From assembly GCA_035288405.1 (NCBI GenBank), contig DATEAK010000244.1:1-7550 (forward strand): a DNA stretch of 7,550 nt, read 5' to 3'. Of the stretch, positions 1 to 7,550 are shown piece by piece. Under the pieces are notes generated by a model. The model worked only from the letters and a program-made list of their open reading frames with translations, did not search any database and was not told the DNA's origin. How positions within the stretch are numbered: the first letter of the stretch is position 1; every line of letters begins with the position of its first letter. The DNA comes from JACPSX01 sp035288405 [NCBI: bacterium]. GTDB taxonomy: Bacteria; JACPSX01. Position numbers and translations under genes: made by a program.

Positions 1-60
1 AGAAGCCGCCACGAAAAAGGCAAGTAGCAAAGCCGCAAAGAAAAGATTTCGCTTTGTCAA
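1..60 (-). CDS. Secreted or membrane protein, N-terminal signal-peptide fragment (runs off left edge)
   Basis: Only the first 20 codons are present. The start is TTG at 60-58. An AAGGAG ribosome binding site at 67-72 sits 6 nt upstream, which decides the start. The translation opens MTKRNLFFAALL and continues LLAFFVAAS-like: a short positive n-region (Lys3, Arg4), then a hydrophobic stretch rich in Leu, Ala and Phe. This is a textbook Sec signal peptide, although the cleavage site lies beyond the edge. A competing ATG at 79-77 is in another frame, has no ribosome binding site and gives no signal peptide. The gene is divergent from cysK and has its own promoter candidate at 109-138. The mature protein is outside the window, so its function is unknown. 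The signal-peptide reading is direct; export is inferred. Confidence 0.7.
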   Translation of the reverse strand, partial: MTKRNLFFAALLLAFFVAAS

Positions 61-108
61 TTGACTCTCCTTGATTCATTGGACTTTTTGATCGGTTTTT
101 AGAATGAC

Positions 109-138
109 AATATCCTACTTTCAACTCTCCAGGGTCAA
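109..138 (-). promoter_or_regulatory. Candidate sigma-70 promoter for the leftward secreted-protein gene
   Basis: On the minus strand, TTGACC (138-133) matches 5 of 6 of the -35 consensus. An 18 bp spacer follows, then GATATT (114-109), which matches 4 of 6 of TATAAT. The predicted start near 102 leaves a leader of about 40 nt before the TTG codon. It is back to back with the cysK promoter. Pattern match only. Confidence 0.5.
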
Positions 139-171
139 GCCTCTTTTTCCTTTTCACTCATGTGGACAGCA

Positions 172-200
172 TTGACAGCATGGGCCAATTACGTTATGGT
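172..200 (+). promoter_or_regulatory. Sigma-70 promoter of cysK
   Basis: A perfect TTGACA (172-177), a 17 bp spacer and TATGGT (195-200, 4 of 6 to TATAAT) place the transcription start near 207. The promoter lies inside the longest open frame of cysK, which could start with GTG at 162. A transcript from here could not encode that start, which supports translation from ATG 246. The same -35/-10 geometry, followed directly by TTCTTGC, recurs upstream of thrC at 1186-1221. Confidence 0.65.
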
Positions 201-219
201 TTCTTGCCGCCTGCAAGAA
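201..219 (+). promoter_or_regulatory. Perfect palindrome at the cysK transcription start (operator or leader hairpin)
   Basis: TTCTTGC (201-207) and GCAAGAA (213-219) form a perfect 7 bp inverted repeat around a 5 nt centre (CGCCT). It begins right after the -10 box and covers the predicted start site, a usual place for a repressor operator. The word GCAAG recurs at 222-226, and GGCAA at 226-230 can pair with TTGCC at 204-208, so RNA pairings ending near the ribosome binding site are also possible. An Rrf2/CymR-type protein is the obvious local candidate to bind here, but that is inference; I do not claim a match to a known CymR box. Confidence 0.45.
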
Positions 220-245
220 TCGCAAGGCAAAGCCGAGGTGAGAAG

Positions 246-1169
246 ATGGGTCTGAACATGGAGAGTGTTGAGGGGTTGGTAGGTCGTACTCCTCTCCTGA
301 AAATCCGCCGGATCCTGCCGCCGGATTCCGCCGAACTTTTTGCAAAAATGGAGTTTTTTAACCCCGGCGGCAGCGTCAAGGACCGGATCGCTCTCGCCAT
401 GATCGATGAGGCCGAGCGCCAGGGAATCTTGAAGCCCGGCTCGACCATCATCGAACCCACCAGCGGCAACACCGGACTCGGACTCGCCATGATCGGGGCG
501 GCCCGGCGCTATCGAGTCATTGTGGTCCTCTGCCAGGGAATGAGCTTTGAGCGCCAGAAACTCCTGGAGGGGTACGGCACCGAAGTGATCCTCACCCCGG
601 CGGACTGGGGAATGAAGGGGGCCGTGGAAAAAGCGGAAAATCTCGTCGCACAGCACCCGGACTACTACATGCCCCAGCAGTTCAACAACCCGGCCAATCC
701 CGAAGCGCACCGCCGGACGACCGGCCCGGAAATCCTGGAGGGCTTACAGGGCAGGCCCGTGGACGCTCTGGTGGTCGGGGTCGGCACGGGCGGGACGATC
801 ACGGGAGTCGGGGAAGTTCTGAAGAAGTCCTACCCCCAGATGAAGGTCATCGCGGTGGAACCGGCGACTTCAGCCATCTTGTCAGGCCATGCGGCGGGAC
901 CTCACCAAATCCAGGGAATCGGCGCTGGATTTATCCCCCAAATCTTGAATCGCGAAATCATCGATGAGGTGATCCCGGTCAGCGATGAAGACGCCTTTTC
1001 CTGGGCCCGCAAGCTTGCCCATGAGGAAGGAATCGCAGTCGGCATCTCCTCCGGGGCCGCCTGCTGTGCGGCGGTTAAGGTGGCGCGCCGTCTGGGCACC
1101 GGCAAGACGGTGGTTACTTTATTTGCCGACGCCAACACGCGCTATCTCAGCACCGCCCTGTTCGATTAA
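246..1169 (+). CDS. cysK: Cysteine synthase (O-acetylserine sulfhydrylase, CysK/CysM family)
   Basis: This is a 307-residue PLP enzyme of fold type II that makes L-cysteine from an activated serine and a sulfide donor in the cytoplasm. The length is normal for the family. PLP-binding Lys45 lies in NPGGSVKDR (39-47). The substrate loop TSGNTG is at 72-77, the phosphate-binding GTGGT at 180-184, GPHQIQGIGAGF at 218-229 and GISSGAA at 266-272. The GPHxIQGIGAGF segment is typical of O-acetylserine-type CysK. The phosphoserine-specific mycobacterial CysM has an arginine-bearing segment there, so O-acetylserine is the likelier substrate. ATG 246 was chosen because GAGGTG (235-240) lies 5 nt upstream and a promoter lies inside the longer GTG-162 frame; ATG 258 is also possible. 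Oddity: the usual MPxxMS loop reads LCQGMS (95-100). A 117 nt gap separates it from thrC. The choice of symbol between cysK and cysM is less certain than the family. Confidence 0.92.
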   Translation: MGLNMESVEGLVGRTPLLKIRRILPPDSAELFAKMEFFNPGGSVKDRIALAMIDEAERQGILKPGSTIIEPTSGNTGLGLAMIGAARRYRVIVVLCQGMSFERQKLLEGYGTEVILTPADWGMKGAVEKAENLVAQHPDYYMPQQFNNPANPEAHRRTTGPEILEGLQGRPVDALVVGVGTGGTITGVGEVLKKSYPQMKVIAVEPATSAILSGHAAGPHQIQGIGAGFIPQILNREIIDEVIPVSDEDAFSWARKLAHEEGIAVGISSGAACCAAVKVARRLGTGKTVVTLFADANTRYLSTALFD

Positions 1170-1185
1170 AGCTATCCTTTCCCTC

Positions 1186-1221
1186 TTGACTCCAACCCTT
1201 TGTTATGCTAGCGTTTCTTGC
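1186..1221 (+). promoter_or_regulatory. Candidate promoter and shared TTCTTGC word upstream of thrC
   Basis: TTGACT (1186-1191, 5 of 6), a 17 bp spacer and TAGCGT (1209-1214, only 3 of 6) are followed at once by TTCTTGC (1215-1221). The -35 box alone would be weak support. What raises confidence is that TTGAC and TTCTTGC are 29 bp apart, start to start, exactly as at cysK (172 and 201). The second palindrome arm present at cysK is missing here. Transcription from this site would give a leader of about 65 nt before thrC. Read-through from cysK is also possible, since no terminator is visible in 1170-1186. Confidence 0.4.
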
Positions 1222-1286
1222 TCTTGTTGGTATCATAAAACCCGAGGCATCGGCCTTGAGCAAGCCGAGATAAGGAACGACGAGAA

Positions 1287-2525
1287 ATGGGATACGTTCT
1301 GGGACTTCAGTGCCGTGAGTGCGGGCGGCAATATCCGAAAGAGCCGTTGCACGTCTGCGAATTTTGTTTTGGCCCGCTGGAAATTGTTTACGACTACGAG
1401 CAGATCCGCCGTGTTTTAACCCGGGAGTCGATCGCCCGGGGTCCCCGCAACATGTGGCGCTATCAGCCCCTGCTCCCTCTGGATGGTGAGCCCACGGTGG
1501 GGCAGCATGTCGGCTTCACCCCGCTCGTCAAGGCAAAACGGCTTGGCAAAGTCCTGGGACTTAACAATCTCTACCTCAAGAACGACTGCGTCAACCACCC
1601 TACTCTTTCCTTCAAAGACCGGGTGGTGGCAGTGGCCGTCAGTAAAGCCATAGAATTTAAATATGACACGGTGGCTTGCGCCTCCACGGGGAATCTCGCC
1701 AATTCCGTGGCCGCCCATGCCGCCGAGGCCGGCCTGAAAAGCTACATCTTTATTCCCGCCGACATTGAAATGACCAAAATCGTCGGCACACTGGTCTACG
1801 GAACGACGCTGATCGGAATCCGGGGCGTGTACGACGAAGTCAACCGCCTGTGCAGCGAGATCGCCGCCAATTTCCACTGGGCCTTCGTGAACATCACGAT
1901 CCGGCCGTTTTACGGAGACGGCTCCAAAACCTTCGGCTACGAGATCGCCGAGCAACTTGGGTGGAAGGCTCCGGATCACGTGGTGATCCCCGTGGCGGGC
2001 AGTTCACTGATCACCAAGGTCTATAAAGCCTTTCACGAATTTCAACATCTGGGATTGATCGACGAGGTGAAGACGAAAATCCATGCGGCGCAGGCCAGCG
2101 GTTGCGCCCCGGTGACAACAGCCATCAAAGAAGGTCGCGACTTCATCAAGCCGGTCATCCCGAATACGATTGCAAAATCCATCGCCATCGGTAACCCGGC
2201 GGACGGTTATTACGGGATCAAGACCGTGAACGAAAGCGGTGGGTACGGAGAAGACGTCTCGGACGATGAGATCGTGGAATGCATAAAGCTCTTGGCCCAG
2301 ACCGAAGGGATCTTCGCGGAAACGGCCGGGGGAGTCACCCTGGGGGTTGCCCGCAAGCTGATCGCTCAGGGACGGATCCAACCCGAGGATGTCACGGTCC
2401 TGGCCATCACGGGCAACGGGATCAAGACCCAGGAAGCGGTGATGGAAAAGGTCGGTTCTCCGGTGGTCATCGATCCCCGCTTGAGCGCATTCCAGGATCT
2501 CTTTAACAGAAAGGAGGGTAAATAA
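1287..2525 (+). CDS. thrC: Threonine synthase with N-terminal zinc ribbon
   Basis: This 412-residue PLP enzyme is predicted to convert O-phosphohomoserine to threonine and phosphate. An N-terminal zinc ribbon is formed by Cys9-x2-Cys12 and Cys24-x2-Cys27. The PLP domain has Lys110 in LSFKDR (107-112), the STGN loop at 133-136, a phosphate-binding turn around PVAGSSL (235-241) and TGNGIKT (375-381) near the C-terminus. These match the threonine synthase branch of fold type II enzymes. AAGGA (1272-1276) lies 10 nt before the ATG. The stop codon ends 1 nt before the sulfur-carrier start, so the two genes are surely co-transcribed. Sharing an operon with a CysO-like carrier and a NIL protein raises the possibility that it, or a paralogue-like activity, uses O-phosphohomoserine as a sulfur acceptor for homocysteine. 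That is inference; ordinary threonine synthesis is the default reading. Confidence 0.9.
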   Translation: MGYVLGLQCRECGRQYPKEPLHVCEFCFGPLEIVYDYEQIRRVLTRESIARGPRNMWRYQPLLPLDGEPTVGQHVGFTPLVKAKRLGKVLGLNNLYLKNDCVNHPTLSFKDRVVAVAVSKAIEFKYDTVACASTGNLANSVAAHAAEAGLKSYIFIPADIEMTKIVGTLVYGTTLIGIRGVYDEVNRLCSEIAANFHWAFVNITIRPFYGDGSKTFGYEIAEQLGWKAPDHVVIPVAGSSLITKVYKAFHEFQHLGLIDEVKTKIHAAQASGCAPVTTAIKEGRDFIKPVIPNTIAKSIAIGNPADGYYGIKTVNESGGYGEDVSDDEIVECIKLLAQTEGIFAETAGGVTLGVARKLIAQGRIQPEDVTVLAITGNGIKTQEAVMEKVGSPVVIDPRLSAFQDLFNRKEGK

Positions 2526-2526
2526 C

Positions 2527-2805
2527 ATGCCTATTCTGGTGCGAGTACCGACGCCCTTGCAGAAACTGACGGGCAACCGCGGAGAGGTGAACGCTTCGGG
2601 AAGCAACGTGAAGGAGGTTCTCTCCAATCTCGAAGATCAATTCAAGGGGGTCCGTGAGAGACTGTACGACGATTCCGGAACCCTTCGCCGGTTCATCAAT
2701 ATTTACGTCAACGATGAAGACATCCGCTTCCTCCAGGGAGAAAGCACGAAGGTCAAGGAAGGGGATGAAATCTCGATCGTGCCGGCAATTGCCGGGGGGA
2801 AATGA
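2527..2805 (+). CDS. CysO/MoaD/ThiS-family sulfur-carrier protein
   Basis: A 92-residue ubiquitin-fold sulfur carrier. Such proteins are adenylated at a C-terminal Gly-Gly by an E1-like enzyme and converted to a thiocarboxylate that gives sulfide to a biosynthetic enzyme. The segment RFINIYVNDEDIRF (55-68), the preceding ERLYD and the ending VPAIAGG are very close to what I recall of mycobacterial CysO, the carrier for cysteine synthesis, and less like molybdopterin MoaD. The diglycine is Gly90-Gly91 but is followed by Lys92, so the precursor is blocked until the lysine is removed. In related systems a JAMM protease does this kind of trimming. A strong AAGGAGG (2511-2517) precedes ATG 2527 by 9 nt and lies inside the end of thrC. 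The gene shares an operon with thrC and the NIL protein. Neither the activating enzyme nor the protease is in the window. Confidence 0.88.
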   Translation: MPILVRVPTPLQKLTGNRGEVNASGSNVKEVLSNLEDQFKGVRERLYDDSGTLRRFINIYVNDEDIRFLQGESTKVKEGDEISIVPAIAGGK

Positions 2806-2861
2806 GCATCAACGCCGGATCCCCGGAGCCGCGGAAAAAGCAAGAACGGGAGGCCAAGTGA
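2802..2861 (+). other. 19-codon bridging reading frame between the carrier and NIL genes
   Basis: ATG 2802 overlaps the carrier stop (ATGA). The frame reads MSINAGSPEPRKKQEREAK and ends at TGA 2859-2861, which overlaps the GTG start of the NIL gene (GTGA at 2858-2861). It contains the GGAGG ribosome binding site of the NIL gene. Ribosomes finishing the carrier could reinitiate here and pass on to the NIL start. It may be a coupling device or chance; the peptide resembles nothing I know. Confidence 0.25.
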
Positions 2862-3097
2862 CAACACTGCGTGTGCACCTCCGATTTCCTCCTGAAATCA
2901 TCAAACGGCCGGTCATCCATGAAATAGGCCACACCTTCAACATCATCACCAATATCCGGCGCGCCAATATCACTCTCGAAGAAGGATGGGCCGACATCGA
3001 GATCAGCGGCGACAGCAAGGAAATTGATAAGGCCGTGGACACTCTCCGAAGCTGGGGTGTCCGTGTCGACCCCATCGAGGGAGATGTGATTGAATAG
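2858..3097 (+). CDS. Stand-alone NIL-domain protein
   Basis: A 79-residue protein that is essentially one NIL domain, an ACT-like ferredoxin fold. The pattern VHLRFPPEIIKRPVI (6-20), FNIITNIRRANI (27-38) and EEGWADIEISG (41-51), ending with a hydrophobic turn VRVDPIE, matches this family. NIL domains are known at the C-terminus of the methionine transporter ATPase MetN and beside ferredoxin domains in proteins of the DUF39/COG1900 homocysteine-forming system. The partner here is unknown; a sensor or accessory role in sulfur amino-acid synthesis is inferred from the operon. GTG 2858 is chosen because GGAGG (2849-2853) lies 4 nt upstream and the length then equals the domain. The frame is open back to ATG 2654, but that start would lie inside the carrier gene and add 68 residues that resemble nothing. 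Confidence 0.85.
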   Translation: MTTLRVHLRFPPEIIKRPVIHEIGHTFNIITNIRRANITLEEGWADIEISGDSKEIDKAVDTLRSWGVRVDPIEGDVIE

Positions 3098-3181
3098 GGA
3101 GCATTCAGCTTTCAGCCGGATGCGAAAATCAAGAAGGAAGGTAGACCTAAGGATCCAACTGCCGGAGATGACAGCAGCTCT

Positions 3182-3601
3182 TTAGATGTGATAGACCATG
3201 GCTCCCCTCTCAAGCTTGGCCTTACGGGCGATCAAGTCTTCGAGAGAAACCTTAAGCACATCGGCGATAGCCCCCTCGACATCTTCCCACAGAGCATTAA
3301 ATACGTCCCGGCTCCCGCCTTTCTTGTGACTGACGATCCGAATGGGGCCCTCCAGTGCTTCGATGATCTCGGCAACCGTGATCCGGCTGGAGGTTCGGGA
3401 CAAACCATAGCCTCCCGCAGCTCCCCGCTGGCTGGCCACCAAGCCCGCCTGCCGCAACCGCAGGAGAAGTTGCTCCAAGTAACGCTGGGGAATTCCCTGG
3501 CGATGCGCAATCTCGCGGATCTGGATTGGGGCGTCCGCGTGGTGGATGGCAAGATCCAGCATCGCCTTTAATCCGTATTCCCCTTTTGTGGATATTCTCA
3601 T
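3182..3601 (-). CDS. Rrf2-family transcriptional regulator, CymR-like
   Basis: A 139-residue winged-helix DNA-binding protein. It opens MRISTKGEYGLKAML, followed by the helix-turn-helix with YLEQLLLRLRQAGLV (41-55) and the wing RGAAGGYGLSR (59-69); ALEGPI (82-87) follows. These are standard Rrf2 features. It has no cysteine, so it lacks the three Fe-S ligands of IscR and should not sense by an iron-sulfur cluster. The overall layout and the aromatic C-terminus VYHI resemble Bacillus CymR, the cysteine-metabolism repressor whose co-repressor is CysK. A CysK-type enzyme two kilobases away and a sulfur operon ending 84 bp away support a sulfur role. AAGGAG (3612-3617) lies 10 nt before the ATG. 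The gene is convergent with the NIL gene and divergent from the acyltransferase fusion. The family is sure; the CymR role is inference. Confidence 0.88.
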   Translation of the reverse strand: MRISTKGEYGLKAMLDLAIHHADAPIQIREIAHRQGIPQRYLEQLLLRLRQAGLVASQRGAAGGYGLSRTSSRITVAEIIEALEGPIRIVSHKKGGSRDVFNALWEDVEGAIADVLKVSLEDLIARKAKLERGAMVYHI

Positions 3602-3836: not shown

Positions 3837-6176
3837 ATGGAAATAAAATCGGAAGATACCGCCTCGACTCCTGAGCCATCCACAGTCCCTTCTTTGCCAG
3901 CCTTCCACCTTCGGAACCTCAAGCTGACGCGCTTCTTTCTTGACCAGCTTCTGAAACGTCTCAAGGTTTCGGTGCGGGTTCATGACTTGACGGATCAGTT
4001 CTGGGCCGGAGGGGGAATCGTCGTGGCCAACCACTTCACCCGCTTCGAGACCTTCGTTCTTCCTCATGTTCTCTACCAAAAAGCCCGGGTGAAGTTGAGG
4101 ATCCTGGCCCATCATTCGTTTTTCCAGAACCGATTCTTTGGAGACTACCTAAGAAGTGTCGGGGCGCTGCCCTCAAACACCCCAGGCAAATTTGAACTGA
4201 TCGCCCGGGACATCCTGCAAGGAGGCTGGTGGCTCATTTTTCCCGAAGGGGGCATGATTAAAGACCGCAACGTGATGGAGCGCGGAAAACTTCGGATTTA
4301 CGACAACGGAATCCGGCGCCCGCCGCACTCCGGCGCAGCAGTCCTGGCGCTCCTGGTGCAACGCTACAAAAACAATCTGCGCCGGGCCATCGAGAGAGAC
4401 CGGAACGAAGTCGAATCCGTTTGCCGGCGTCTCGGCCTCGAGCATTGCACTCGAGATGACTTGATGTCCATCTCCCAACGCCTTACTTCCCTTCTTCCGG
4501 TGAACGTCACCTACTATCCCTTGCGAAGCTCGGAGATGATCTTCCAGCAACTGGCCCGGCGGCTTCCTCACGATTTTTTGTCCCGCAACGGAGGGGAGCG
4601 GCTGCTGGAGGAGATTACCGTGGAGGGCTCGATGCTCCTGGGAGGAATTGAGATTGACATCCAGGTGGGCACCCCCCTGATCGTCGAGGCAGGCTTCAAG
4701 CGAATGGATCGGCGCCAGTTCGATGCCGGTTACCATCCCCCTCTGATTAAACTCGTGGAGGCCTTGAGCAACAGAAAGATCTTTCACACTTACGGACATC
4801 TGCTGGAGAAATGGCTTCTGGAAAGTGACCGCAGGACAAAGACCCGAGCCCGGCAAATCACCAATCACTATATGAAGCAGATCTACTCCCTTGTCACCGT
4901 GAATCTGGACCATTTGATCTGTGAAACCATCCATCAATCCGTCGTGTCGCTGGGCTTGCCCGGTCTGCCCGTCTCCCAGCTCCGACATGTCGTTTACAGG
5001 ACGGCGGAGACGGTGAGCCGGGAGCGCGAAATTCACCTTCACCCCGATCTGCAGGACCCTTTCGTGATTTACTCGCTTCTTACGGAAGATGGTCACCCGA
5101 AATTCACTTCCCTCCTGCAACGTCTGGAAAATACCGGCATCATCGAGCAAACGGGGGACAGGATTCAATTTAACGAAGAGAAGATCCGGCAGAACTCGGC
5201 GTTCACCCGGATGCGTCTCCAAAACATCCTGCAGGTCTACTCCAACGAGGTCCAGCCGCTTACCAAGGTCACTGGGGCTGTCGGTCTCCAGATTAAATCC
5301 TCCCGGCAATTTACGGGTCCCGAACTGGCGGATGCGCTCTTCAGCGGAGATCTCCAAGTCTACGAGAAAGAGTGGCAAAACGCGGCGGCCCATTCAGGAC
5401 CTTTGGCGGAATCCAAACCCCACGGGCTGGGAATCCCTTTTTTCTACCGGGGCCGGCGCGGAACGCGGGAAGGGAATACGGGAGTTTTGCTCATCCACGG
5501 GTTTTCGGCAACACCGGAAGAAACAAAACCTCTGGGCCGCACACTTCACGCTCGGGGGTACACAGTGTATGGAGTACGACTGCGGGGGCACGGCACCTCT
5601 CCGGCAGATCTGGACGGAAGGCTATGGGAGGACTGGTATGGCTCCGTACTGTGGGGCTACAGTTGTCTGCGCCAGTATTGTTCCACGGTGTTCGTTGCGG
5701 GATTTTCGGCTGGAGCGGCTCTGGCCCTGATTCTGGCTTCCAGGAAGGGGGAAACAATTCACGGAGCGATAACGGTTTCCCCTCCTATCCAGATGCAAAA
5801 TCCCTGGCTGCGCCTGGCGGCTCTTGTCGGAATGGTGACACAGCAGGTGAACTCGGAACCTGAAAACCCTCACGTCAACTACACGACTCTATCTCCCAAG
5901 GCAATCGCTCAGTTCAACCGCCTGGTAGAAGCTTGTCAGGCCGAGATTCCGAACGTGAGACAGCCCACCTTGATTCTCCAGTCCCGTAACGATCCCACTG
6001 TAAAACCGGAGAGCGCACAGATCGTCTACGACGAGTTAAGAATCCGGGACAAGAAGTTAGTCTGGATTGAGCGCCCTCGGCACGTGATCATCGGGGTGGA
6101 CTGCCCTGAAGTGCACGAGGAAATTGCCGGGTTCATCGCCCGGAGGACAACCCCCGCATCGTTTCCGGAAAATTAA
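3837..6176 (+). CDS. Fusion protein: PlsC/PlsB-like acyltransferase plus alpha/beta hydrolase
   Basis: A 779-residue protein with two enzyme modules. Residues about 40-290 resemble a glycerol-3-phosphate or lysophosphatidate acyltransferase: Asn65-His66 with an acid at Glu71 (family usually H-x4-D), the GALPSNTPGKF segment near 109-119 and FPEGG at 135-139. Residues about 300-520 are helical and recall the C-terminal part of PlsB. Residues about 545-770 form an esterase/lipase fold: HGFSATPEE from His554, nucleophile elbow GFSAG with Ser624, acid Asp719 in SRNDP, and His749 in RPRHV. The set fits small carboxylesterases and monoacylglycerol lipases. There is no signal peptide or clear membrane helix. 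ATG 3837 is the first start after an in-frame TGA at 3822-3824; its ribosome binding site is weak. A role in lipid synthesis or remodelling is inferred; the substrate is unknown. Nothing links it to the sulfur genes except divergence from the regulator. Confidence 0.85.
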   Translation: MEIKSEDTASTPEPSTVPSLPAFHLRNLKLTRFFLDQLLKRLKVSVRVHDLTDQFWAGGGIVVANHFTRFETFVLPHVLYQKARVKLRILAHHSFFQNRFFGDYLRSVGALPSNTPGKFELIARDILQGGWWLIFPEGGMIKDRNVMERGKLRIYDNGIRRPPHSGAAVLALLVQRYKNNLRRAIERDRNEVESVCRRLGLEHCTRDDLMSISQRLTSLLPVNVTYYPLRSSEMIFQQLARRLPHDFLSRNGGERLLEEITVEGSMLLGGIEIDIQVGTPLIVEAGFKRMDRRQFDAGYHPPLIKLVEALSNRKIFHTYGHLLEKWLLESDRRTKTRARQITNHYMKQIYSLVTVNLDHLICETIHQSVVSLGLPGLPVSQLRHVVYRTAETVSREREIHLHPDLQDPFVIYSLLTEDGHPKFTSLLQRLENTGIIEQTGDRIQFNEEKIRQNSAFTRMRLQNILQVYSNEVQPLTKVTGAVGLQIKSSRQFTGPELADALFSGDLQVYEKEWQNAAAHSGPLAESKPHGLGIPFFYRGRRGTREGNTGVLLIHGFSATPEETKPLGRTLHARGYTVYGVRLRGHGTSPADLDGRLWEDWYGSVLWGYSCLRQYCSTVFVAGFSAGAALALILASRKGETIHGAITVSPPIQMQNPWLRLAALVGMVTQQVNSEPENPHVNYTTLSPKAIAQFNRLVEACQAEIPNVRQPTLILQSRNDPTVKPESAQIVYDELRIRDKKLVWIERPRHVIIGVDCPEVHEEIAGFIARRTTPASFPEN

Positions 6177-6210: not shown

Positions 6211-7550
6211 TTACCGCGCGGCAGCAGCACCTTCCCGCCTGAGAGGAACCGTAACGGTGGCTTTCTCGTACTTGCAGAACTCGTCCCGACGGCTTTCCTC
6301 AACGATGAGCCGATCGGCCTGAATCTCTTTGATCACCCCGCCTCGGGAACCCACCAGTGTGTTTACCGTGACCGTATAGCCTTTCCCATCCGGCGCCTGG
6401 ATCAAAGCTTTGTTCCCCAATTGACCCCAGAGGACCCCCACGAGCTTCAGGGAATCCAGATCATAGCGCTGCAAGGGAGTGCGGGCCACAATCGGCGGCT
6501 CCTGGCCCTTGCACACTTTCTCGGACAAGATGACCGGCCGGAAGGGATCCCTTTGAGCACCGGATTTTTCCGCTACCTTCCCCGGTGAGGCAATCGAGGA
6601 CTCTCCAGGCTTGTCCGCAGGCGCCGGAGCCGCCTGCGGGTTCAGCAAAGCCAAGAGCCCCGGCGGTGGCTCCGAGGGAGCAGCAGCGGCCGGCTTGGGA
6701 GTCTTGGGGATATCCGCCAGAGCCATGAAAACCCGGCTCGTGATCCAATTTTTGTCGTTCACGCTTTCCCCTACCGCGAAGGGAGCTACACGCAAAAGTT
6801 CCAGAGCCTGTAGCAGACCTGAGCCTTGCTGTTGGGCATTCTTCAAAGCAGGATTCATCGAGGCCACTACGGAGACGATGCGTCCGATCGAGTCAGCAGC
6901 CTTGTTCCCATTGACAAAGAAAACCCCGTTGCTTTTTTCAGAAAGCTGTCCCTTGGCCTCCAAGAAGCGCGCGTTTTTATCCAAGGACGCCACTTTTCCC
7001 GCCGCAATGTCGAGGGCGCTCATGAGCTTCGCCTTGTCCGTCGCCACCAGAAGGAAATCCTTGGTGACAGCGTACGCGGGGCTGAGGAGTTGAGGAATCT
7101 CAAGATAGGTAATCTCCACTCCCTGGTAACTCTGGCGCTTTAGGCCCTTGGATGGGATTCGTCCCTTACTTTTGGCAATGAGCCGCGTGAGCCCGCTGCG
7201 GAGGAGACGATCGACCTTGGCCCGATCTTTCACCTGCAGGATAACCAACGCCTGGGGAATTGGAAGCGAGCTGCCCGCATCCGCCGGCAGCAGCGCGTAA
7301 GCCCACTCTTTACCCACCAGGGGAACCAGATCGCGCTCGATGCTGATCCCCAGTTCTTCTTGAACAGCAAGCTGCAATTTTTCCCCGGGAGTGACTTGAT
7401 GAGAATCGGCCTTGAGAGCCGTACGGCTGCGGCTCCAAGAAGTCCGAGAATCGAAACTGTTATTAGCCACATACACAAAGGCATCTTCGGGAACAAAAGC
7501 GAGGGACCGATAGGTGGCCGGGAGTTGAGCGAGGCGCTTGACCTGTTCGG
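6211..7550 (-). CDS. DUF3352 protein with C-terminal PilP-like domain (5' end outside window)
   Basis: The frame is open from the right edge to TAA 6213-6211, giving 445 residues. A GTG at 7476 is in frame, but coding clearly continues upstream with LAFVPEDAFVYVANNS, the usual opening of a DUF3352 repeat, so the true start is beyond 7550. The first 260 or so residues look like DUF3352: IERDLVPLVGKEWA, LVILQVKDRAKVDRLL, YQGVEITYLEI, FLLVATDKAKLMSAL, GVFFVNGN. A Pro/Ala-rich linker follows (about nt 6590-6715). The C-terminal segment from RDPFRP (near nt 6540) through PLQRYDLDSLKLVGVL to a small beta domain resembles PilP, the inner-membrane lipoprotein that links pilus alignment and secretin subcomplexes. 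Two cysteines lie in this part. A pilus or envelope role is inferred. The gene is convergent with the fusion gene, 34 nt apart, with no sure terminator between them. Confidence 0.75.
   Translation of the reverse strand, partial: EQVKRLAQLPATYRSLAFVPEDAFVYVANNSFDSRTSWSRSRTALKADSHQVTPGEKLQLAVQEELGISIERDLVPLVGKEWAYALLPADAGSSLPIPQALVILQVKDRAKVDRLLRSGLTRLIAKSKGRIPSKGLKRQSYQGVEITYLEIPQLLSPAYAVTKDFLLVATDKAKLMSALDIAAGKVASLDKNARFLEAKGQLSEKSNGVFFVNGNKAADSIGRIVSVVASMNPALKNAQQQGSGLLQALELLRVAPFAVGESVNDKNWITSRVFMALADIPKTPKPAAAAPSEPPPGLLALLNPQAAPAPADKPGESSIASPGKVAEKSGAQRDPFRPVILSEKVCKGQEPPIVARTPLQRYDLDSLKLVGVLWGQLGNKALIQAPDGKGYTVTVNTLVGSRGGVIKEIQADRLIVEESRRDEFCKYEKATVTVPLRREGAAAAR

Follow-up and report, generated by a model that had tools for sequence, protein, structure and literature searches.

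Hasebe et al. reportedly found in 2024 that MetO, a small protein of Streptomyces albulus, is thiocarboxylated and acts as a sulfur donor. In Wolinella, according to what is said of the work of Krishnamoorthy and Begley in 2011, the HcyS-HcyD system supplies a thiocarboxylate donor to a MetY-type enzyme that uses O-acetylhomoserine. Here we describe a stretch of 7,550 nucleotides from JACPSX01 sp035288405 (contig DATEAK010000244.1), referred to below as the window. A first-pass annotation had read four consecutive plus-strand genes at positions 246-3097, and profile matches confirm them: cysK, a thrC homologue, a CysO-like sulfur carrier of the ThiS/MoaD type and a NIL protein. We propose, with a probability of about 0.78, that the thrC homologue and the carrier form a homocysteine synthase of the MetM-MetO type. 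The locus would resemble HcyS-HcyD in drawing the sulfur of homocysteine from a protein thiocarboxylate, but none of the three relatives described below has a real member of PF01053.

The available part of PMC12172450 credits Hasebe et al. 2024 (AEM 90:e01247-24) with the finding that MetM of Streptomyces, a homocysteine synthase, uses O-phosphohomoserine and that metO is the carrier gene next to it. It also states that metM carries an S-adenosylmethionine (SAM) riboswitch in Streptomyces that is absent in Microcystis. The view of the first-pass annotation that a threonine synthase joined to a carrier is not a described pathway is therefore out of date. Because our pair matches MetM-MetO of Streptomyces, the core of the pathway is already known. 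The likeness to the S. albulus system lies in a ThrC homologue with its own clade, a GG-bearing carrier gene directly downstream (1-nt gap), a SAM riboswitch before the Nonomuraea orthologue and an ordinary threonine synthase elsewhere in each of the three relatives. The window differs in having no riboswitch match, in adding NIL and cysK genes and in encoding a carrier that ends in GG-Lys; some relatives also add MoeB, JAMM, homoserine dehydrogenase and sulfate-assimilation genes. What is new, judged from sequence, is a putative metM-metO-like operon containing NIL in three metagenome-assembled genomes (MAGs), one from Tectomicrobia, one from Latescibacterota and one unplaced.

Other described systems resemble the locus in part. 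The mycobacterial CysO-CysM-Mec system (excerpts of PMC3227635 and PMC12910592) has a CysO-like carrier, and relatives of the window encode the MoeB/MoeZ-type activator and JAMM protein expected from it. It differs from the window, where the cysteine synthase is of the CysK type, the carrier adjoins a ThrC homologue and the open reading frames (ORFs) include no JAMM. Operons combining ThiS/MoaD, JAB, E1 and cysteine synthase genes have been described without a threonine synthase (excerpt of PMC1779556). The DUF39 pathway requires a NIL-ferredoxin (excerpt of PMC5764234). As proposed here, a NIL-domain protein accompanies a homocysteine-forming enzyme in that route, but the enzyme is a different one, the window NIL protein is free-standing and lacks ferredoxin and cysteine, and DUF39 was not found in the closest relative. 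The same excerpt (Price et al. 2018) names organisms with no known homocysteine route, and many genomes lack any textbook homocysteine gene.

The thrC-carrier pair is conserved in distant genomes

Relatives of the window were collected by scanning genome_contigs once with its ThrC protein, which gave three among 34 pattern matches: a Candidatus Tectomicrobia MAG (G001, locus L001), an unplaced MAG (G002, L002) and a Latescibacterota MAG (G003, L003). A protein search of a plasmid collection returned 184 records. Only the best match, a ThrC orthologue 51-53% identical on an 11.85-Mb replicon of Nonomuraea gerenzanensis (L016), was taken into the clade, and three of the other 183 records were inspected. 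The five cluster loci, the window included, thus come from a thin sampling of one scan and one search. L001 is closely related to the window and is not independent evidence because its ThrC is 93% identical to that of the window over 412 residues and its gene order is the same. Scanning viral_contigs with a five-row ThrC alignment gave 20 pattern matches and no relative. Six further ThrC loci served as controls, three from the same MAGs (L008, L009 and L010) and three from plasmids (L051, L052 and L053).

A carrier gene directly follows the clade thrC in all five loci, with spacings of -4 to +24 nt. No carrier or NIL profile match at E <= 1e-3 was found in the DNA fetched around any of the six control loci. 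The thrC-carrier adjacency is more than chance. NIL and a cysteine-synthase gene (cysK or other) are each part of the cluster at four of the five loci, Nonomuraea being the exception for both. The recurrence of carrier, NIL, MoeB and JAMM genes beside ThrC in distant genomes agrees with the conserved adjacency that the first-pass annotation had put forward as a check.

The gene content of the cluster varies among relatives. In G002 (L002/L043), a cysteine synthase gene that is read across two frames precedes JAMM, thrC, carrier, NIL and MoeB-rhodanese, and the genes are spaced -4 to +24 nt apart. The Latescibacterota operon is divided between two contigs that overlap by exactly 99 nt within thrC, with a continuous reading frame. 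Contig C75 carries Rrf2, a phosphoadenylyl- or adenylyl-sulfate (PAPS/APS) reductase (cysH), ATP sulfurylase (sat), a split PiT-family permease, JAMM, homoserine dehydrogenase, ThiS, CysK and the 5' part of thrC; contig C114 carries thrC, carrier, MoeB and NIL. MoeB and JAMM are therefore in the operons of both G002 and G003, and homoserine dehydrogenase and sulfate-assimilation genes are added in G003. The ThiS gene of C75 is a second carrier gene, located between homoserine dehydrogenase and cysK (L041 5792-6046; TIGR01683, 59 bits). In Nonomuraea, thrC and carrier are flanked by a trehalose-phosphate-synthase family gene and a GroEL gene, a position that we take to correspond to SCO4293-SCO4294 of S. 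coelicolor.

The tight packing noted in the first-pass annotation holds for the 1-nt gap between thrC and carrier. It does not hold for the ATGA/GTGA overlaps, which run through a 19-codon ORF. NIL starts at GTG 2858, preceded by GGGAGG, 52 nt past the carrier stop. The cysK stop at 1169 is 117 nt from thrC.

Cluster ThrC proteins differ from ordinary threonine synthases

The window ThrC homologue scores 278 bits against TIGR00260 (cut-off 167). The ordinary ThrC proteins of the three relative MAGs also score over the cut-off, so this model cannot separate the cluster clade from ordinary ThrC. We built a tree of 16 rows comprising the five cluster proteins, eight ordinary threonine synthases and three plasmid proteins (35-38% class and similar). 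The cluster proteins form one group with support of 100/100, and a branch with the same 100/100 support has all eight ordinary threonine synthases on one side. The three plasmid proteins attach on the cluster side. This clade is linked to MetM by proxy, through the riboswitch-led Nonomuraea orthologue instead of the S. albulus MetM sequence itself.

The alignment contains 21 positions that are identical in all eight ordinary enzymes and changed in all five cluster proteins. They include T88, S155, N157, R160, Q164, N188 and N191 in Thermus numbering; Arg206, Tyr209, Ser213 and Lys244 are invariant in the cluster proteins instead. T88, S155 and R160 of Thermus threonine synthase presumably contact the substrate phosphate, an assumption for which a literature search gave nothing usable. 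The AlphaFold model of the ThrC-like protein had a mean predicted local distance difference test score (pLDDT) of 56 and was not used.

A second, ordinary ThrC is present in all three relative genomes. This frees the cluster copy for a different role, and a supply of O-phosphohomoserine is to be expected. On the basis of residues, clade and the second ThrC, we rejected the reading of window thrC as an ordinary threonine synthase. The ordinary thrC of the Latescibacterota MAG (L010 231-1424) adjoins a phosphoglycerate-mutase-like gene (PF10143), a family discussed as a possible homoserine kinase in the available part of PMC7311316.

A riboswitch in Nonomuraea links the pair to methionine synthesis

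In Nonomuraea, a SAM riboswitch (Rfam RF00162, 68.7 bits, E 6e-14, L016 7834-7975) immediately precedes the pair and ends 13 nt before the thrC start, placed at ATG 7989. This position indicates that the pair belongs to methionine synthesis. No riboswitch reached the Rfam gathering score in the window, L001, L041, L003 or L043. For S. coelicolor, Table 1 in the available part of PMC2267785 lists SCO4293 (thrC) and SCO4294 under sulfate assimilation with a cysM group and cysN/D/C/H/I. The two genes were grouped by profile, with distance values of 0.15 and 0.20 that fall below the threshold of 0.134 + 1.2 x 0.067.

We counted pathway genes in the three relative genomes and in 14 control genomes. 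No real member of PF01053 (MetB/C/Y/Z type) was found in the relatives, where four weak partial matches proved to be DegT or class I/II aminotransferases; all 14 controls have real members. MetX was found in none of the three relatives and in seven of the 14 controls. The lack of metX and of real metB/metY-type genes, which the first-pass annotation had raised as a check, was seen in all three relatives. Each relative has homoserine dehydrogenase. An S-methyltransferase family gene is present in G001 and G003 and was not found in G002, and full-length DUF39 (PF01837) is present in G002 and G003 and was not found in G001. Going by these gene counts, the cluster would be the only candidate for homocysteine synthesis found in G001, and G002 and G003 would have a second route.

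The genomes also encode candidate activators. ThiF-family genes number one in G001, three in G002 and one in G003. The only one in G001 is a rhodanese-MoeB fusion (L042 2925-4100, contig C87) with an in-frame TGA at a site where G002 and G003 have a conserved Cys. Selenocysteine was considered for this codon and rejected: SelA was not found in G001, which makes an error or gene decay likelier.

The carrier resembles CysO and SAMP1

The window carrier matches PF02597 with 64 bits (cut-off 22.5) and the SAMP1 model NF041918 with 60.6 bits (cut-off 60). Its best PDB match is CysO (3dwg_C, 83 bits), from a structure of CysO in complex with CysM, followed by an Amycolatopsis carrier (4n6e_B, 76 bits). 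The GG motif is invariant in the five aligned carriers. It is followed by K in the window, by KRA in L001, whose carrier gene spans 2746-3030, and by V in L002, and is terminal in L003 and L016. Carriers with residues past GG need trimming before adenylation, as in the case of QbsE and QbsD. G002 and G003 each carry a single JAMM gene, located in the cluster, which agrees with this need; for the lineage of the window a gap remains.

We rejected the reading of the window carrier as the MoaD of molybdenum cofactor synthesis, an identity that the first-pass annotation had named as the one that would count against its reading. In G001, the closest genome, a different carrier gene overlaps moaE (PF02391). 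A further MoaD/SAMP-like carrier ending in GG is encoded away from the cluster in that genome (L025 1498-1815, contig C99).

The NIL protein is a candidate methionine sensor

The window NIL protein matches PF09383 with 43.3 bits (cut-off 24). It contains no cysteine, so it is not a sulfur carrier, and it has NIRRA in place of the NIL motif. An alignment of the four cluster NIL proteins has 21 invariant columns, the NIRRA motif, a C-terminal PxxGDxxE tail and no cysteines. The predicted model of the window protein (pLDDT 86) has MetN C-terminal domains as its eight best structural matches (Z 13.0 to 9.7, the next match scoring 8.7); the top one is 3tuz_H (Z 13.0, root-mean-square deviation 1.3, 72 residues). 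A profile of the four rows matches seven MetN sequences, and a PDB search with the single sequence gave no meaningful match. Asn32, invariant in all four proteins, aligns with Asn295 of E. coli MetN and with Ser in two other MetN chains. The protein thus resembles the MetN NIL (C2) domain in fold and profile, but it is free-standing and has the NIRRA motif and its own C-terminal tail.

Methionine bound to the MetN C-terminal domain inhibits the E. coli MetNI transporter (excerpts of PMC8416018 and eLife 69742). We propose a methionine sensor because the model matches this methionine-binding domain. Judging by the predicted fold, the protein may bind methionine or a related amino acid and tune the enzyme or the carrier; no function seems likelier to us, and we rate this one close to even. 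A protein-level sensor would be economical, since one actinomycete has the riboswitch without NIL and the other loci have NIL without the riboswitch, a contrast that rests on four lineages. We tentatively extend this proposal, at somewhat less than even odds: free-standing NIL proteins may be partners dedicated to homocysteine synthases fed by a carrier, sensing methionine at the protein level in place of the SAM riboswitch found at actinomycete metM-metO. If true, NIL would be a common control or binding module of two unrelated homocysteine routes, MetM-MetO and DUF39. We found no mention of NIL together with MetM in the literature searched.

NIL could instead be a structural or catalytic partner, such as a substrate or product channel or a scaffold for docking the carrier. 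This role is possible, with odds of perhaps one in three in our estimation. Its precedent is the NIL-ferredoxin that accompanies DUF39 in homocysteine synthesis and is required there (PMC5764234, in part), and the conserved tail of the cluster proteins could dock to a partner. However, fold and profile are closest to the methionine-binding, inhibitory MetN domain, and the Nonomuraea pair, which has the riboswitch, manages without NIL. In the relatives, G001 has the cluster NIL only, and G002 and G003 each have one extra; unlike the cluster protein, it is a NIL-ferredoxin that contains FNILKA and a pair of 4Fe-4S motifs.

A proposed pathway and its alternatives

In the pathway we favor, residues past the carrier GG (one Lys in the window) would be removed first, probably by a JAMM protease. 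MoeB, whose gene belongs to the operon in G002 and G003 and lies elsewhere in G001, would then adenylate the C-terminal GG, and a rhodanese or a sulfide source would form the thiocarboxylate. The ThrC-like enzyme, which uses pyridoxal phosphate, would activate O-phospho-L-homoserine and take the carrier sulfur to yield homocysteine, a step suggested by Streptomyces MetM-MetO, the riboswitch and the changed active-site positions. CysK alongside would make cysteine from O-acetylserine and sulfide in the ordinary way. NIL would tune the enzyme or carrier upon binding methionine or a related amino acid, and the CymR-like Rrf2 protein may regulate the operon. Carrier-bound sulfur for homocysteine, one option in the first-pass annotation, stands as the best reading, and the nearest solved relative of the carrier is CysO. 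Carrier-bound sulfur for cysteine, another of its options, is not supported, since the window CysK is of the ordinary O-acetylserine type.

Several observations weigh against a MetM-MetO pathway. A characterized homologue, as given in the available part of PMC12172450, is Microcystis ThrC, which shares 51.6% identity with S. albulus MetM; the carrier encoded next to it shares 47% with MetO. The enzyme showed threonine synthase and threonine deaminase activity, yielded with sulfide nothing but an unidentified peak and did not raise methionine in vivo, and the authors doubted a MetM role for it in the cell; that part of the text on Microcystis ThrC makes no mention of a carrier thiocarboxylate. 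TIGR00260 accepts the cluster clade, and the three plasmid ThrC proteins outside it also lack many of the 21 residues, so their loss is not unique to the cluster. JAMM had no match in G001 at E <= 0.01, where the carrier ends in GG-KRA, and none among the window ORFs. The only ThiF-family gene of G001 is interrupted by TGA. Window positions 1-3300 gave no Rfam match at E <= 1, and no NIL lies within the 17 kb fetched around the Nonomuraea pair. Full-length DUF39 and NIL-ferredoxin genes occur in G002 and G003, where the cluster would be a second homocysteine route, and all absences come from MAGs of unknown completeness.

The Microcystis enzyme, which makes threonine from O-phosphohomoserine and deaminates threonine (PMC12172450, in part), and the passing TIGR00260 score would both suit an ordinary or bifunctional threonine synthase. 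The carrier would then serve tRNA thiolation, molybdenum cofactor synthesis or protein modification, and SAMP1-like carriers can modify proteins. We consider this very unlikely in view of the 21 changed positions, the second ThrC in every relative, the Nonomuraea riboswitch, the cysteine-synthase gene beside the pair at four of five loci with sulfate-assimilation genes at one, and the separate moaD beside moaE in G001. A system like CysO/CysM, in which the carrier feeds the neighboring cysteine synthase and the ThrC homologue is incidental, would account for the likeness to CysO, solved with CysM, and for the cysteine synthase in four clusters. It is improbable all the same: the window enzyme is CysK and not CysM by TIGR01139, its PDB neighbors use sulfide, thrC touches the carrier at all five loci, no cysteine synthase is among the ORFs listed around the Nonomuraea pair, and the riboswitch there senses SAM, not cysteine.

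The ThrC-like enzyme might also place carrier sulfur on another phospho-amino acid, for example O-phosphoserine, to give a product other than homocysteine. The changed residues include the presumed phosphate contacts T88, S155 and R160, which leaves room for a different substrate. Cysteate synthase, derived from ThrC, acts on O-phosphoserine, and in G002 and G003 homocysteine is already accounted for by DUF39. We find this scarcely probable, as the G003 operon includes homoserine dehydrogenase, the Nonomuraea pair follows a SAM riboswitch and Streptomyces MetM is assigned to O-phosphohomoserine (PMC12172450, in part).

The homocysteine synthase reading would place the MetM-MetO route in three uncultivated lineages, with a NIL protein added. 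Residue and neighborhood signatures separate MetM-like proteins from threonine synthase, whereas annotation models do not. Whether thrC-annotated genes beside moaD or cysO fill methionine gaps can now be tested, as can the role of NIL in homocysteine synthesis.

Other features of the window

Table 1. Features at and next to the cysK-NIL locus, in window coordinates
Feature	Position	Strand	Basis
cysK, O-acetylserine-type cysteine synthase	246..1169	+	ATG 246 or 258; TIGR01139; PDB 2egu
metM-like gene, thrC homologue with N-terminal CxxC..CxxC ribbon, proposed homocysteine synthase	1287..2525	+	PF00291, TIGR00260, own clade
metO-like gene, CysO/MoaD/SAMP1-type sulfur carrier, C-terminus ...AIAGG-K	2527..2805	+	PF02597; CysO 3dwg_C
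19-codon ORF bridging carrier and NIL genes, probably not a gene	2802..2861	+	sequence reading
Free-standing NIL protein, 79 aa, proposed methionine sensor	2858..3097	+	PF09383; MetN-like predicted fold
Rrf2-family regulator, candidate operon regulator	3182..3601	-	PF02082 120 bits; NF047409 CymR 128 bits, cut-off 195

The window CysK scores 432 bits against TIGR01139 (cut-off 351) and stays below the cut-off of the CysM model TIGR01138. Its best PDB match is the cysteine synthase 2egu (369 bits), and its PDB neighbors use sulfide. Free sulfide is the likelier sulfur source for an ordinary O-acetylserine-type CysK, and a carrier-fed CysK was not favored given this profile and these neighbors. 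CymR is a regulator of cysteine metabolism. It is the best family for the Rrf2 protein besides the superfamily, at a score below the cut-off of that model, and the Latescibacterota operon likewise has an Rrf2 gene at its head. A promoter and terminator scan found two of each against 1.5 and 4.6 expected and was given no weight. Farther along the window, a single protein at 3837-6176 combines acyltransferase and alpha/beta hydrolase domains (PF01553 and PF12146), and one encoded on the minus strand at 6211-7476 carries both DUF3352 and PilP domains.

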